From positions 2,108,001-2,172,000 of the forward strand of contig NZ_JBAJIJ010000001.1 of assembly GCF_036867135.1 (NCBI RefSeq): a stretch of 64,000 nucleotides of DNA, given 5' to 3'. Both the position numbers and the translations under genes were made by a program. Shown here in pieces: positions 2,293-11,949 of the stretch. The notes beneath the pieces are model-generated. The model was given only the letters and a program-made list of their open reading frames with translations, was not told where the DNA came from and made no database searches. Each line of letters begins with the position of its first letter. The first letter of the stretch is position 1. This DNA is from Aeromicrobium sp. Sec7.5 (GTDB lineage Bacteria; Actinomycetota; Actinomycetes; Propionibacteriales; Nocardioidaceae).

Positions 2293-3204
2293 TCAGGACA
2301 GGGCCTCGGCCACGATCGCCATGGCGTCGGCGATCGCTGCGTCGACCGTGCCGGCGTCCTGCGCGTCGCGCGAGGTCAGGATCGCGACCACGATCGGCGC
2401 ACCTCCCGGCGGCCAGACCACGGCGATGTCGTTGCGCGTGCCGTAGGACGCGGAACCGGTCTTGTCGGCGACCTCCCACCCGGCGGGCACGCCCGCACGG
2501 ATGACGGCGTCACCGGTCGTGTTCCGGCGCATCAGATCGAGCAGGGTGTCGCGGGCGCCCTGGTCCGCCTCGCCGAGCGTGTAGTGCTCCAGCGTCGCGA
2601 CCATGGCCCGGGGCGTGCTCGTGTCGCGATCGTCGCCGGGCACGGCCTCGTTGAGCTCGGGCTCGGTGCGTGAGGAGCTCGTCACGTCGTCGCCCGTGGC
2701 GCGCAGGGCCTCCTGGAGCCCGGGCGGGCCGCCGACCAGGCCCAGGAGCGGGTTGGCCGCCGCGTTGTCGCTGAATCGCACCGCGCCGTCGGCGAGCTCG
2801 CCGACCGTCATGGTGGTGCGCCCCTGCGCCAAGGCGTCCTTGACCGTCGGCGCGTACTCCTCCAGGTCGTCCGTCGAGATCGGCACCTCCTGCTCCAGGA
2901 CCCTCGTCGACTCCTGCTCGAGCAGCGCACCCACGAGGAACGCCTTGATGGTCGAGGCGAAGGCGAAGCGCTCGTCGGGCCGGTGCTCGACGCTGTCGCC
3001 CGATCCGGTGTCGAGCGCGCAGACCCCGAGTCGCACGTCGTGGGTCTGCTCGACCGCCACAAGGTCGTCGGAGCGGTCGATCACCGAGCCGGCGGACGTC
3101 TCGTTCGTCGCGGGCCGCGGTTCCGGCGATTCCTCCCCGCCGCTGCACCCCGACGCCGCGATCAGCAGCACCAGCACCGTCGACACCACCCCGAGCCCCC
3201 GCAT
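2293..3204 (-). CDS. Class A beta-lactamase (lipoprotein)
   Basis: A serine beta-lactamase, hydrolysing beta-lactam rings outside the membrane. All class A landmarks are visible: STIK (catalytic Ser about 84, Lys about 87), SDN, ExxLN in EPELNEA, and KTGS. I chose the ATG at 3204 because it gives a lipoprotein signal (LVLLIAASGC, lipidated Cys about 20). An upstream in-frame extension lacks a signal and is Arg-rich. The predicted product is 303 aa. Downstream, three degenerate 17-bp repeats cover 2261-2311. The substrate range cannot be inferred. Confidence 0.9.
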   Translation of the reverse strand: MRGLGVVSTVLVLLIAASGCSGGEESPEPRPATNETSAGSVIDRSDDLVAVEQTHDVRLGVCALDTGSGDSVEHRPDERFAFASTIKAFLVGALLEQESTRVLEQEVPISTDDLEEYAPTVKDALAQGRTTMTVGELADGAVRFSDNAAANPLLGLVGGPPGLQEALRATGDDVTSSSRTEPELNEAVPGDDRDTSTPRAMVATLEHYTLGEADQGARDTLLDLMRRNTTGDAVIRAGVPAGWEVADKTGSASYGTRNDIAVVWPPGGAPIVVAILTSRDAQDAGTVDAAIADAMAIVAEALS

Positions 3205-7163: not shown

Positions 7164-7981
7164 GCGAACACCCGCCGCTCGCTCGGCAGTCGGCCGATCC
7201 GCATCATCAACCGGTACGCCACGACGCACACCACGGCCCCGCCGACGACGATCAGCCCACCGGTCGGCGTGGAGTAGCGGTCGACGACGTCGGATCGCCC
7301 CGCCATGCTCAGCAGGACCAGCCACGGCGCAGCCACCGCGAGCCGCGCTCCGTTGACGGTCCACGACTGCCGCGACTCCAGCTCGCCACGGGTGCGAAGG
7401 TCGTCGCGGAGGAAGCCGGAGAGCGAGCGCAGGACCCGGCCGAGGTCCCGGCCGCCCACGTGACGGGTCAAACGCAGCGCCTCGACGACCCGGTCGCCGG
7501 TGGGATCGGCCAGGCGCGACTTCAACCGGTCGAGAGCGTCGTCGAACCGGCCCGACGAGGCGTGGTCTCGTCCGAACTGCGCGAAGTACGGCCGCAGCTG
7601 CTCCGGGCCGCGCCGACCGAGGGCCGCCACGGCCTCGGGCAGGGACATGCCCGCCCGCACGCCGGCGGCGAGGTGGTCGACGACATCGGGCCACGCGGCC
7701 CTCCGCTCCCGCAGCAGCCGTTCGCGTCGGCCACGCCGGACGGCGCCCGGCAGCACCGAGGCGAGCTGGCCCACACCGAGCCCGATCGTGGGTGAACCAG
7801 TCAGCCCAGCCGTGACGACCCAGGCGCCGGCGGCGCACCCCGCACCGGATCCGATGCTGCGCCACGCCACCGGAGACCGTCGGGCCGAGACTCGGCGAAA
7901 GCGTCCCGGATTCGGCGTGGACCACCACGAGACGATCAGCGTGAGCCCGAGGCCGACCACCAACCCGATCAGAACCCCCAC
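7160..7981 (-). CDS. tadB: Tad secretion membrane protein TadB (type II secretion F domain)
   Basis: A 273-residue partner of TadC. It opens with a membrane helix (GVLIGLVVGLGLTLIVSWW), then the F-domain pattern WPDVVDHLAAGVRAGMSLPEAVAALG and a later LVLLSMAG plus VVGGAVVCVVAYRLM pair of helices. The GTG start at 7981 overlaps the tadA 3' end by 13 nt. TadB and TadC form the inner-membrane platform driven by the TadA ATPase. The gene itself is intact even though tadA is interrupted. Confidence 0.88.
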   Translation of the reverse strand: MGVLIGLVVGLGLTLIVSWWSTPNPGRFRRVSARRSPVAWRSIGSGAGCAAGAWVVTAGLTGSPTIGLGVGQLASVLPGAVRRGRRERLLRERRAAWPDVVDHLAAGVRAGMSLPEAVAALGRRGPEQLRPYFAQFGRDHASSGRFDDALDRLKSRLADPTGDRVVEALRLTRHVGGRDLGRVLRSLSGFLRDDLRTRGELESRQSWTVNGARLAVAAPWLVLLSMAGRSDVVDRYSTPTGGLIVVGGAVVCVVAYRLMMRIGRLPSERRVFA

Positions 7982-8960
7982 GAGCCACCTCCGAGCAGGG
8001 AGTCGAGGTCAAGCCCGGCGCGCTCGAAGGCGTCGCGGCGGGCGGGCCGCCCCACGGCCCGAACGAGGTCGCCGGAGCGTCGTTCGAAGACCGGTTCGCT
8101 CTCGACGCTGCCGGACTCGACCCGGCCCGTGACGGCGACGACCTCCTGCACGGCGCGACGGCCGGAGGAGTCCATCGCGGTGTGGACCACGAGATCGACC
8201 GTGCTGGCGACGGTCGGCACCACGAACCCCGCACCGATGTTCTCACCGGCGAGCAGCGGGAGGGTGCTGAGCTTCATCAGCGCCTGGCGCGCGGAGTTCG
8301 CATGGATCGATGCCAGTCCCGGCAGCCCGGAGTTCAGCGCCAGGAGGAGGTCGAGGCACTCCGCCGCCCGCACCTCGCCGATGATGAGGCGACTCGGGCG
8401 CATGCGCAGCGACTCCTTCACCAGCGCGCGGAGGTCGATCTCGCCGTTGCCCTCGAGCCCGGGTGGACGACACTGGAGCTGGACCCAGTCGGGGTGGGTG
8501 ATCTGCAGCTCGTAGACCTCCTCGGCCGAGACGACACGTTCGTGTCCCGGGATCGCCCCAGCAAGGCAGTTGAGCAGCGTGGTCTTGCCGGCCTGGGTGG
8601 CGCCGGAGACGACGATGTTGAGGCCAGCCACCACGCTGCCGCGCAGGAACCGGGCCGTCGCGGTGTCGAGGGTGCCGAGGTCGACGAGTGCCTCGAGGTC
8701 GTGGGCCCGGGCGACGAACTTGCGAATGTTGACCGCGGTGAAGCCATTCGAGATCCCGTCGAGCACGACGTGGAGGCGATGTCCGCCGGGGAGGTTGGCA
8801 TCGACGAAGGGCTGGCTCACGTCGAGGCGCCGGCCCGTGGTCGACAGCATCCGCTCGACCAGCTCGCGCACCCCGTCGGCCGTGAGGATGATGCTCGTCA
8901 GCTCGTGCCGACCGCCGCGGGCCACGAACACCCGGTCCGGCGCGTTGATCCAGATCTCCT
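7969..8960 (-). pseudogene. tadA: tadA/cpaF, 3' fragment cut off by IS110 insertion
   Basis: This part encodes the C-terminal 330 residues of the Flp pilus ATPase. It begins EIWINAPDRVFVARGG, which is the middle of the conserved CpaF N-domain motif, and carries Walker A GATQAGKTT and a Walker B region (RPSRLIIGEVR). Directly upstream in frame is a TAG belonging to the inserted element. The rest of the gene lies at 11597-11840. Joining the two parts at the shared CT gives 412 codons with no frame loss, reading DDPSVEEIWINAPDR. The ATPase is therefore inactive unless the element leaves. Confidence 0.92.
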
Positions 8961-8969
8961 AGGGCGTTG

Positions 8970-9440
8970 CTACCGGCTCCGTTCACGCCACGTCGGAGGT
9001 CGTCCACCCTCGCGCCAGATCACGAGTCGGAGATCAGCGAGAAGCGCAGTAGTGGCCGCAGCGTGCGCTGCAACAGCATCGCGCGCGATGTGCTTCTTGT
9101 GAAGGAGAGCATCGGTGATCGTCACGAGCGTCCGGTTGGCGCGTGACATCGCTTCGTCGATGCGTTGGGCTTCCTCGAGCGTGAGCCACTTCTGCCCGGG
9201 GAAGTCTGGAGCAGGTTCGGCCACGTAGGGCTCGTCCGCGTTAAGCCGACCCTCGCGGCGTCGCGCCCGCATTCGACCCGTCCAACGTTTGCGCATGGCT
9301 CTGTGGAAGATGCATCGCGGTGAACGACCTTCGGCCGGGCGACTGGTCGCGTCGGGGAACAGCGAGCAATCAACACACTCGCGGTAGTCCTGCTCATCGT
9401 TACTCACGCTGTTTACGCCTGCAGGCAGATCGCTCAGCAC
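8970..9440 (-). CDS. Passenger protein of the IS110 element, zinc-knuckle-like, unknown
   Basis: An open frame of up to 156 codons from GTG 9440, with GTG 9407 as an alternative start. It ends only 9 nt from the left border of the element. Visible features are a CxxC at ECVDC and a later CxxH at RCIFHR, likely one zinc site, followed by a very basic stretch (RKRWTGRMRARRREGR) and a helical C-terminal half. I do not recognise the family. Its lower GC content than the surroundings and its antisense orientation to the transposase suggest cargo. It could instead be a chance frame. Confidence 0.5.
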   Translation of the reverse strand: MLSDLPAGVNSVSNDEQDYRECVDCSLFPDATSRPAEGRSPRCIFHRAMRKRWTGRMRARRREGRLNADEPYVAEPAPDFPGQKWLTLEEAQRIDEAMSRANRTLVTITDALLHKKHIARDAVAAHAAATTALLADLRLVIWREGGRPPTWRERSR

Positions 9441-9589
9441 TCGCTGTAATCACGGCACGATCCTATGTATCCCTACCGTCAACCGTCTGCCGTGTGCACT
9501 GCATTAACGCTGATTAACGCAGTTTTGGTCCCTGCGGCGTGTCGACTGGACTCGTCCGGCGGTCGGACGGGAACGTCCGGTCATGTCGA

Positions 9590-9930
9590 GCCGCCACCAC
9601 AAACACGTCTACGGACTGCGCGGGCTTCGAGCCCTTCTGAGAGACGGACGGTTTGTGGTGGTCGCTGGGTATGGCGAACGACCCCGTGAGATGCCGCACC
9701 TTGAGTGCTCTGCCCTAGACCGATGCGCCAACCCAACAGGCTCGGAACCCACAGGAAGGAGAGGTCCTTGACCTCACCGGCCAGCACTGCGTTAGCAGTC
9801 CCGAGCCGCCGTCACGAAACCGCTTCAGATCTCCCGCACCGTGAGTGCTTCGTTGAGAGCGCGGGTCGTGTCGGTCGCTGGAGGCTGCTGAAACGGCCAT
9901 GTGAGATGTCGTGCCCTGAGCACTGATTGA
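9590..9930 (+). ncRNA. Candidate bridge RNA of the IS110 element
   Basis: This gene-free stretch upstream of the transposase holds guide-like segments. Target loop: 9826-9834 (CAGATCTCC) equals the left tadA flank, and 9870-9877 (GTCGGTCG) is the reverse complement of the right flank 11597-11604. They flank a hairpin region. Donor loop: 9686-9693 (GTGAGATG) equals the right end of the element, and 9712-9718 (GCCCTAG) is the reverse complement of 8959-8965 at the left end. A third module at 9901-9925 repeats the right-end sequence over 10 nt. IS110 recombinases use such RNAs. The transcript limits are not known. Confidence 0.75.
9594..9661 (+). other. Large RNA-type stem-loop in IS110 left region
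   Basis: Positions 9594-9604 (CCACCACAAAC) pair perfectly with 9651-9661. Inside lie a second helix, CGTCT 9606-9610 with AGACG 9642-9646, and a GGGCT/AGCCC hairpin at 9622-9634. A separate hairpin with stem CGGACG/CGTCCG lies just upstream near 9564-9579. Nested helices of this kind suggest a folded transcript, perhaps the 5' domain of the element's guide RNA. Confidence 0.6.
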
Positions 9931-10011
9931 CGTAGGTCGCCGCCAGTGGCCTCCACCCTTCCACCGGCGACTCCACACCCGCTGAACCACCCACAGAACG
10001 GAGATACACCC

Positions 10012-11337
10012 ATGCCCGCATACGTCGGAATCGACTGGAGTGAGTCCTACCAAGACTGGGCTGCTGTCGACCACGAAGGCACCAAGATCGAGGGAGGACG
10101 GTTCCTCGAGACACCGGACGGCTTCGATGACTTCGAGGCCCGCATCAGGGCTCTCGCTGACCCCGAGACCGGCACCCTGCCCACGATCGCGATCGAGACC
10201 GAGAAGGGCCTGACGGTCGCCAACCTGCGTCGTCGGGGCTACGCCGTCTACGCGATCAACCCGCTCAAGGTCTCGAACTACCGCACGCGCAAGGCAACGA
10301 GCCGCGGCAAGAGCGACAAGGGCGACGCGATGATGATCGCCAACATCGTCCGGACAGACCCCGACGACCACCGTGCGCTGCCGAACATCACGCCGAGCGG
10401 TCACGCGATGACCGTGCTGTCCCGCGCCCATCAGGACGAGATCTGGCGTGTCACGTCGATCGCGGCCGAGATGCGCAGCGTGCTGCGTACCTACTACCCG
10501 ACCGCCCTCGAGGTCTATCCCACCAAGACCCTCGTCAGCGACGAAGCGCGCACCGTCCTCCGGGCCCTGCCCACTCCGACGGCTGCGGCCGCGAAGCGCG
10601 CCGCCGGGTGGAAAACTCTGCTCCGCGACTCAGGTCGGGTGAAGTACATCGACCGAGACGCCGCCCGCCGCATCGAGTCATTCCGGGCGCCGACCCTGCG
10701 GGTCGACCCCGTCGAGGAGGCCGCGCTCGGCGCCCGACTGCAGGCCCTCATCACCACGCTCGACGGCGCCGTCACCGCGCAGCGCACCATCGAGGAGCAG
10801 ATGATGAACGCCGTCCGCCAGCACCACTACTACCCGCTGCTGCAGCCGATCGTCGGCATCGGGGACACCATCGCCGCCCGACTCCTCGGCGAGATCGGCG
10901 ACGACCCCTACCGGTTCGACAACAAGAACTCGATCCGTTCCTACGCGGGGACGGCGCCCATCACTCGAGCGTCCGGGAAGTCCATGGTCGTCAACCGGCG
11001 CCGCGTGAAGAACAACAGGCTCAACAACGCGATGTACATGTGGGCCTTCAGCGCCGCCCGCTTCTCTCCCGGCGCAAAGATGCACTACGGCGTTCGCCGG
11101 GAGCAGGGCGAGCGCCACGCGGCCGCTCTGCGCAACCTCGGGAACCGACTCATCGGCTGCCTCTGGCACTGCATGACCACCGGCGAGGTCTGGGACGAGC
11201 ACCGCGTCTGGGGCCACCGCTACACCCTGCCGCCCGCCATGCCCCTCACCGTCGACCTCGACAGCGAGGAGATGCGTCTCGAGACCACTCTCGAGGGCTT
11301 CGACGCGGCCATGGAGGCCGCCGCCGAGACCGCGTGA
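10012..11337 (+). CDS. IS110-family transposase (DEDD/serine recombinase)
   Basis: A 441-residue recombinase. The N-terminal RuvC-like DEDD domain shows VGIDWS (Asp about 7), AIETEKG (Glu) and KSDKGDAMMIA (Asp pair). The C-terminal Transposase_20 domain shows IVGIGDTIAARLLGEIGD and SYAGTAPITRASGKS, which holds the catalytic serine. All key residues look intact, so the element may be active. The ATG at 10012 follows GGAG and lies close to the guide-RNA region, as in the IS110 subgroup where the RNA precedes the gene. Confidence 0.93.
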   Translation: MPAYVGIDWSESYQDWAAVDHEGTKIEGGRFLETPDGFDDFEARIRALADPETGTLPTIAIETEKGLTVANLRRRGYAVYAINPLKVSNYRTRKATSRGKSDKGDAMMIANIVRTDPDDHRALPNITPSGHAMTVLSRAHQDEIWRVTSIAAEMRSVLRTYYPTALEVYPTKTLVSDEARTVLRALPTPTAAAAKRAAGWKTLLRDSGRVKYIDRDAARRIESFRAPTLRVDPVEEAALGARLQALITTLDGAVTAQRTIEEQMMNAVRQHHYYPLLQPIVGIGDTIAARLLGEIGDDPYRFDNKNSIRSYAGTAPITRASGKSMVVNRRRVKNNRLNNAMYMWAFSAARFSPGAKMHYGVRREQGERHAAALRNLGNRLIGCLWHCMTTGEVWDEHRVWGHRYTLPPAMPLTVDLDSEEMRLETTLEGFDAAMEAAAETA

Positions 11338-11352
11338 CCCGACACGACGCGA

Positions 11353-11386
11353 AGGACCCCAGCACGAGCAATCGTGCTGGGGTCCT
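11353..11386 (+). terminator. Transposase terminator, 14-bp perfect stem
   Basis: AGGACCCCAGCACG at 11353-11366 pairs exactly with 11373-11386 across a 6-nt loop. It lies 15 nt after the transposase stop. The remaining 210 nt to the element's right border contain no gene that I can support. Confidence 0.8.
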
Positions 11387-11567
11387 GTTCGCTGAACCAC
11401 CACTGCCGCAGCGTCCAATGAGTACTCGAGGCACAAGCCCTCGGTGTCTCCACAACACCTCGGGAACCTCCTCGCGGAGGCGGACACTTCAAGCGGTCAA
11501 GCGGAGTCGGAATGAGTCTAGTCCCAGCCCTTGCCGGTCACAATCAACACGGACGGTCAGCCTGCCG

Positions 11568-11840
11568 TCAGAGTGCGGTGGCTACGTGAGATGTCTCGAC
11601 CGACGGGTCATCGACCAACGGCTGCAGCACCCCGAGCCCGGCGACGTCGGCGACCAGTCGAGCGACCTCGACGTCGGTCTCGTCGAGCGTGCGCACCGCC
11701 CCGGTCAGGCTGGCCCGCTCGTGATCGGCCACGACGTCCTGGGCCGCCTGCCGCACCGCGGCCGGATCGGCACGCGGGTCGATCCGGCGCTCCCGCACCA
11801 GCTCACGGACGCGCGTCGTCAAGGTCGTTGCAGGATCCAC
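11568..11840 (-). pseudogene. tadA: tadA/cpaF, 5' fragment fused to element sequence
   Basis: The first 81 codons of the pilus ATPase start at GTG 11840, preceded by GAGGAAAGGGA. They encode the CpaF N-domain (DPATTLTTRVRELVRERR, then VADVAGLGVLQPLVDDPSVE). After position 11597 the frame continues into the IS110 element for nine codons (TSHVATAL) and stops at 11568. The catalytic domain is on the far side of the insertion, at 7969-8960. No ssd/cpaE-like gene lies upstream, so the start of the Tad operon seems to be here. Confidence 0.9.
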
Positions 11841-11949
11841 CCCAGATCCCTTTCCTCGGAAAGTCGTGCCGACGAGACTGGCCCGACCCCCGCAAACCCT
11901 GCAACCACCCGAGACGGGGGCTGTGGACAACGAGGTCAGGGTAGGTCAC

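Follow-up and report, generated by a model that had tools for sequence, protein, structure and literature searches.

Two predicted tandem bridge RNAs in an IS110-group element interrupting tadA, and target-loop arrays in its relatives

Which feature of an IS110-group insertion sequence could have led it into tadA? This question is raised by a stretch of Aeromicrobium sp. Sec7.5 DNA (hereafter the window, i.e. the whole 64,000 nt analysed, to which the coordinates refer), in which tadA, on the minus strand, is interrupted by a 2.6-kb IS110 insertion. The original prediction, made from the sequence alone, held that a single bridge RNA encoded upstream of the transposase gene (tnp) carries guides matching both sides of the insertion site. 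Judging from comparison with related elements, we consider it highly probable that the element is an RNA-guided recombinase unit whose left end holds two bridge RNA genes (R1 and R2) in tandem, that the target loop of R2 directed the insertion into tadA, that R1 is a diverged duplicate, and that the guide arrays of relatives follow the same principle. Transcription, processing and activity of the RNAs, as well as a causal role of the guide matches in the insertions, are what we infer from these comparisons.

The element and its insertion site

The whole element (8959-11596, plus strand) carries a copy of the CT core at each end (8959-8960 and 11595-11596), and no further copy of it was found in its own genome. 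In 29 congeners tadA is uninterrupted and provides the empty site. The nearest congeners align through CAGATCTC-CT-CGACC without any gap across the junction, which supports the placement of the core. The insertion shows the short core of the IS110 family, with no target duplication beyond it. Furthermore, CAGATCTCCT is kept exactly in 20 of the 29 congeners with intact tadA, and the guide would therefore address a conserved coding motif. The left end upstream of tnp (1,053 nt, part of which is a possible ORF) is long compared with the right end (259 nt), as in the IS110 group. The transposase (10012-11337, plus strand, 441 aa) has the DEDD N-terminal and Transposase_20 C-terminal domains of the family, with matches to Pfam PF01548 (1.8e-24) and PF02371 (7.7e-17) and, above the cut-off, to NCBIfam NF033542 (1e-45). 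Its match to the NCBIfam TIGR_Tas model (7e-14, 52.4 bits) stays below the cut-off of 100, which places it outside TIGR-Tas.

Two predicted bridge RNAs upstream of the transposase

A covariance model (CM) was built from 33 relatives only, with the window excluded, and shows compensatory changes at 12 of its 16 consensus pairs. Searching with this model bore out the claim that the region encodes a bridge RNA, and yielded two complete matches on the plus strand: R2 (9790-9949; 57.2 bits, E 1e-15), which adjoins the transposase gene and corresponds to the RNA originally proposed, and a second copy, R1 (9578-9732; 60.5 bits, E 1e-16), which had been missed together with the donor loops of both RNAs. 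No match beyond R1 and R2 was found in the CM search of the own genome. The two are 63% identical over 187 aligned columns, flanks included, and a repeat search recovered tandem units ~213-215 nt apart (families D3, D11 and D17). A single bridge RNA per element is usual, though not strictly defining: ~92 related loci have one full CM match each, adjoining the transposase, and no other closely spaced pair of bridge RNAs was seen in 246 sampled genomes of the phylum. One relative (L008) has a second complete bridge RNA (2924-3077) downstream of tnp near a contig end, perhaps belonging to a tandem second element. No Rfam family matched the region, and single-sequence folding z-scores (-0.65 and -1.49) were uninformative. 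A brute-force four-guide finder was dropped, as it matched loops to themselves.

In the relatives, the RNA upstream of tnp starts with a basal stem, a left target guide, a 4-bp hairpin and a right target guide ending in AG, followed by a stem, a linker, a left donor guide, a hairpin and a right donor guide ending in TAG. Each RNA of the window element would likewise comprise a target-binding loop (TBL), in which a hairpin lies between the left guide and a right guide that ends in AG, and a donor-binding loop (DBL) of the same layout.

The target loop of R2 matches the tadA site

The left target guide of R2, CAGATCTCC (9826-9834, plus strand), equals the tadA left flank plus the first core base, at the coordinates and on the strand originally given, and it coincides with the left-guide position of the family. 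It is the sole left-flank match of at least 8 nt in the 1,051-nt left end. The guide is followed by the loop hairpin GCAC-CGTGA-GTGC (9836-9848, plus strand). In the family, the right guide lies directly 3′ of this hairpin and ends in AG, the complement of the CT core; for example, the right guide of relative L005, TCGCGGCAG, is exactly complementary to its CTGCCGCGA flank. By this rule the right target guide of R2 is TTCGTTGAG (9849-9857, plus strand), which pairs with CTCGACCGA, i.e. the core CT plus the right flank. At these structurally defined positions R2 scores 15.0 against tadA (9.0 left and 6.0 right), corresponding to the 99.9% quantile of the family null, with a shuffled-flank p of 6e-4, and one of the 6,086 CT sites in the window reaches 15.0 with the R2 guides. 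R1 scores 9.5 against the same site. The target-loop guides of R2 thus match both flanks as those of a bridge RNA do, the right one imperfectly, and the earlier proposal that a target-binding loop explains the tadA insertion agrees with this score. In the mechanism suggested by the sequence match, and demonstrated by others for the homologous IS621, the R2 target loop would pair around the CT core with both tadA strands and direct the insertion.

Target-loop arrays in related elements

Relatives were examined for extra loops upstream of the full bridge RNA using a target-loop-only model (a first scan of genome contigs with the single transposase protein had given no matches). Many of them have such further target loops, usually 85-135 nt apart. 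Among 68 tabulated loci, 12 have one loop, 30 have two, 20 have three and six have four, counts that are approximate because some loops are weak. Basal-stem arms of 88 upstream loops form 12.0 pairs with their own partner versus 8.4 when partners are swapped (p=4e-27), revealing covariation. The array elements group in a supported clade (99/97) of the transposase tree; the window element lies adjacent to this clade on a long branch with weak support.

The donor guides alone, independently of the target loops, served to define the element ends, and each loop was then scored against the flanks of its own element, with the flanks of other elements as the null. A loop matching its own flanks at p<0.01 was present in 31 of 45 delimited elements, when about one of roughly 110 loops would be expected. 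Examples are L051 (9.0+8.0), L092 (9.0+7.5) and L039 (8.5+8.0), as well as L155, from a plasmid left out of every model (8.5+7.0). No loop was significant against its own flanks in the delimited plasmid elements L147, L149, L153 and L156. The automated counts are slightly low, since in some relatives with short left ends (L005, L007) the loop is misplaced by the hairpin finder and a clear match can be recognised by eye. Moreover, in none of 27 multi-loop cases was the best-fitting loop the donor-adjacent one (L068 was labelled 'adjacent' by the script solely because its donor-adjacent loop was absent from the list).

Related arrays are found at different sites. L026, L027 and L032 have transposases that are 91-94% identical and near-identical guides in all three loops; the sites of L026 and L027 fit loop 1 (7.0+8.0 and 8.0+8.0), and that of L032 fits loop 2, with 9.0 on the left and only 5.5 of 8 on the right. 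The arrays of L067 and L068 are homologous; the site of L067 fits loop 1 and that of L068 fits loop 2, and the loop-2 guides differ between the two elements. L030 and L031 are two copies of one element whose common 10-nt left flank equals the loop 2 guide. In L028 and L048, loops 1, 2 and 4 are closely alike and loop 3 is different, and the plasmid element L150 has loops 1 and 2 in common with both. The simplest reading of these loop-site data would be a modular array of addresses. In the wider family, several target loops would lie upstream of one donor loop, one of them matching the present insertion site. We lean, if only slightly, towards the more general view that this IS110 branch carries modular, interchangeable target-loop arrays sharing one donor loop, so that one element could choose among several sites, as a transposon-borne counterpart of TIGR guide arrays; in the window element the whole target-plus-donor unit would have been duplicated instead.

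Two further features of the arrays were observed. The donor-adjacent target-type loop (in L026, L028, L030, L048, L051 and others) is conserved across elements located at different sites; for the Streptomyces elements, its predicted target, GATACGC-CT-ATGCGGG, occurs in only two of 118 genomes, with one mismatch each. Neighbouring loops within one array can also be near-duplicates (L075, 2022-2205; L039, 1905-2174), pointing to local duplication as the way in which arrays grow.

Donor guides and the role of R1

The left donor guide of R2, GTGAGATGTC (9901-9910, plus strand), equals the right end of the element (11586-11595) at 10 of 10 positions, and its right donor guide, TGACGTAG (9928-9935, plus strand), fits the left end, CTAGGGCG, poorly (5.5 of 8). 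For R1, the left donor guide, GTGAGATGCC (9686-9695, plus strand), matches the right end at 9 of 10 positions, the mismatch adjoining the core, and the right donor guide, TGCCCTAG (9711-9718, plus strand), is the complement of the left end with one G-U pair (7.5 of 8). R1 therefore has the donor guides of a bridge RNA, matching both element ends, whereas R2 fits the right end only. The core-adjoining base of the left donor guide often mismatches the element right end in relatives as well (e.g. L026, L033, L039, L044; GGC or GAC versus GTC), a mismatch so consistent that it may be functional. The target guides of R1, positioned by homology, are CGGACTGCGC (9612-9621, plus strand) on the left and TTCTGAGAG (9635-9643, plus strand) on the right. 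Its predicted target, CGGACTGCG-CT-CTCAG, was not among the matches listed within one mismatch in 39 genomes, and at three mismatches the counts in the own genome were not above those of the reversed control. R1 would be a diverged duplicate addressed to a different target. As the fit of its donor loop to the left end is better than that of the R2 donor loop, it may serve donor recognition or offer a second choice of target.

These fits could suggest a division of labour, with target binding by R2 and donor binding by R1, given that the target fits R2 best and the left end fits R1 best. In IS621, two RNA molecules contribute the TBL and the DBL of one complex, and the loops function when supplied as separate RNAs (PMC11208158); a donor loop shared by several target loops is for this reason mechanically possible, and in the relatives other loops indeed lie between the fitting target loop and the donor loop. 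The left donor guide of R2 is perfect, however, and exceeds that of R1. We regard a strict division as possible, without favouring it.

In another scenario, an earlier tandem or nested insertion would have left R1 behind as a dead relic, and R2 alone would work. Downstream of R1 lies a transposase-leader-like tail (9747-9762, repeat D20) that has no gene behind it, the target of R1 is missing from the matches just mentioned, and in no relative was a side-by-side pair of complete bridge RNAs seen. On the other hand, R1 has kept every loop and a perfect 11-bp basal stem, its family-model score is above that of R2, and its donor guides fit the present ends on both sides, where a relic would be expected to drift. 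We consider a dead R1 possible, though less likely than not.

The original model, in which a single bridge RNA uses the 8-mer GTCGGTCG (9870-9877) as its right target guide, seems very improbable. The 8-mer is, as claimed, the exact reverse complement of the tadA right flank, with correct coordinates and strand, and it lies on the correct side of the loop. It falls, however, within the 3′ arm of the R2 basal stem and the conserved linker GGTCGCTGG (9866-9881, plus strand; shared with R1 as repeat D11 and aligned across the family), five of its bases belonging to the linker. The linker is also present in R1 (9660-9668) and unchanged in relatives inserted at unrelated targets, an outcome that the original prediction had itself named as refuting and that applies to this right-guide half; none of the 31 guide-matched relatives reaches at least 7 of 8 matches to its own right flank at this position. 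Such a guide would moreover omit the core, which pairs in all four IS621 guides (PMC11208160). The argument that the matches are unlikely by chance holds for the 9-mer and is weaker for the 8-mer than claimed, because a second right-flank 8-mer, GACCCGTC, occurs in the left end at 9275. That all the guide matches are coincidental is extremely improbable: the matches are short, the DNA is GC-rich and one other CT site in the window equals the tadA score, but the match lies at a position fixed by the family model and the enrichment is family-wide (31/45).

Several points weigh against the reading of a two-RNA unit targeted by R2. Only eight of nine positions of TTCGTTGAG and CTCGACCGA pair, six as Watson-Crick and two as G-U pairs, with one mismatch. 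R2 alone does not account for both ends, given the poor fit of its right donor guide, and R1 could be a relic, its target not having been found. The closest transposase relatives are at most ~45% identical, and the window element sits on a branch of length 1.86, so that the family rules are extrapolated to it. Furthermore, 14 of the 45 delimited elements have no significant loop, and the sampled array elements are related rather than independent.

Comparison with known RNA-guided systems

Bridge RNAs have been described as consisting of one target loop and one donor loop. The window element resembles IS621 (Durrant 2024, PMC11208160; Hiraizumi 2024, PMC11208158) in all tested features except the number of bridge RNAs: both have a DEDD and Tnp recombinase and a bridge RNA in a long left end, with the target loop before the donor loop, guides reading both strands and the core CT within the pairing. 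IS621 has one target and one donor loop, whereas the window element carries two bridge RNAs, both complete, and in many of its relatives 2-4 target loops accompany a single donor loop, the one that fits not being donor-adjacent. A relative annotated as IS117 family (L154, on a plasmid of S. leeuwenhoekii) also bears a loop array, which brings in IS117, the Streptomyces minicircle, although the window transposase is only ~42% identical to it; a literature search gave no report of guide arrays in IS117. IS1111 elements with their seekRNA are likewise RNA-guided DEDD recombinase systems, but their RNA lies downstream of tnp and they have subterminal inverted repeats (PMC11187229); with both RNAs upstream of tnp, the window element falls outside the IS1111 group. 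TIGR-Tas systems also have arrays, whose two-spacer guide units are bound by a Nop-like domain; these arrays are located beside Tas effectors and lack donor loops (PMC12045711), whereas the arrays described here belong to an IS110 transposon. The TIGR-Tas paper contrasts TIGR arrays with the 'single two-stem unit' of IS110 (PMC12045711), a gap that arrays in IS110 would narrow.

Neither two full bridge RNAs per element nor target-loop arrays were found in the literature searched, which covered papers but no preprints. If the present reading is true, a natural IS110 element could hold several addresses simultaneously, as a small address bank. This would bear on how targets change in evolution, on the cooperation of target and donor loops in trans and on the proposed kinship between IS110 and TIGR, and it would offer natural templates for multi-site programmable recombination.

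Other features of the locus

The element splits tadA, which encodes a pilus or secretion ATPase, into 7969-8931 and 11568-11930. The downstream half of the gene (7972-8931) has matches to Pfam T2SSE and, at a level below the cut-off, to the NCBIfam TadA model. With no other good tadA copy seen in the genome, the Tad system is probably non-functional. A possible passenger ORF of 156 aa (8970-9440, minus strand) belongs to no known family: neither Pfam nor NCBIfam gave a match, and 150 genomes of the family contained no relative of it. Just past the transposase stop codon, a perfect 15-bp inverted repeat (11353-11386) resembles a terminator.
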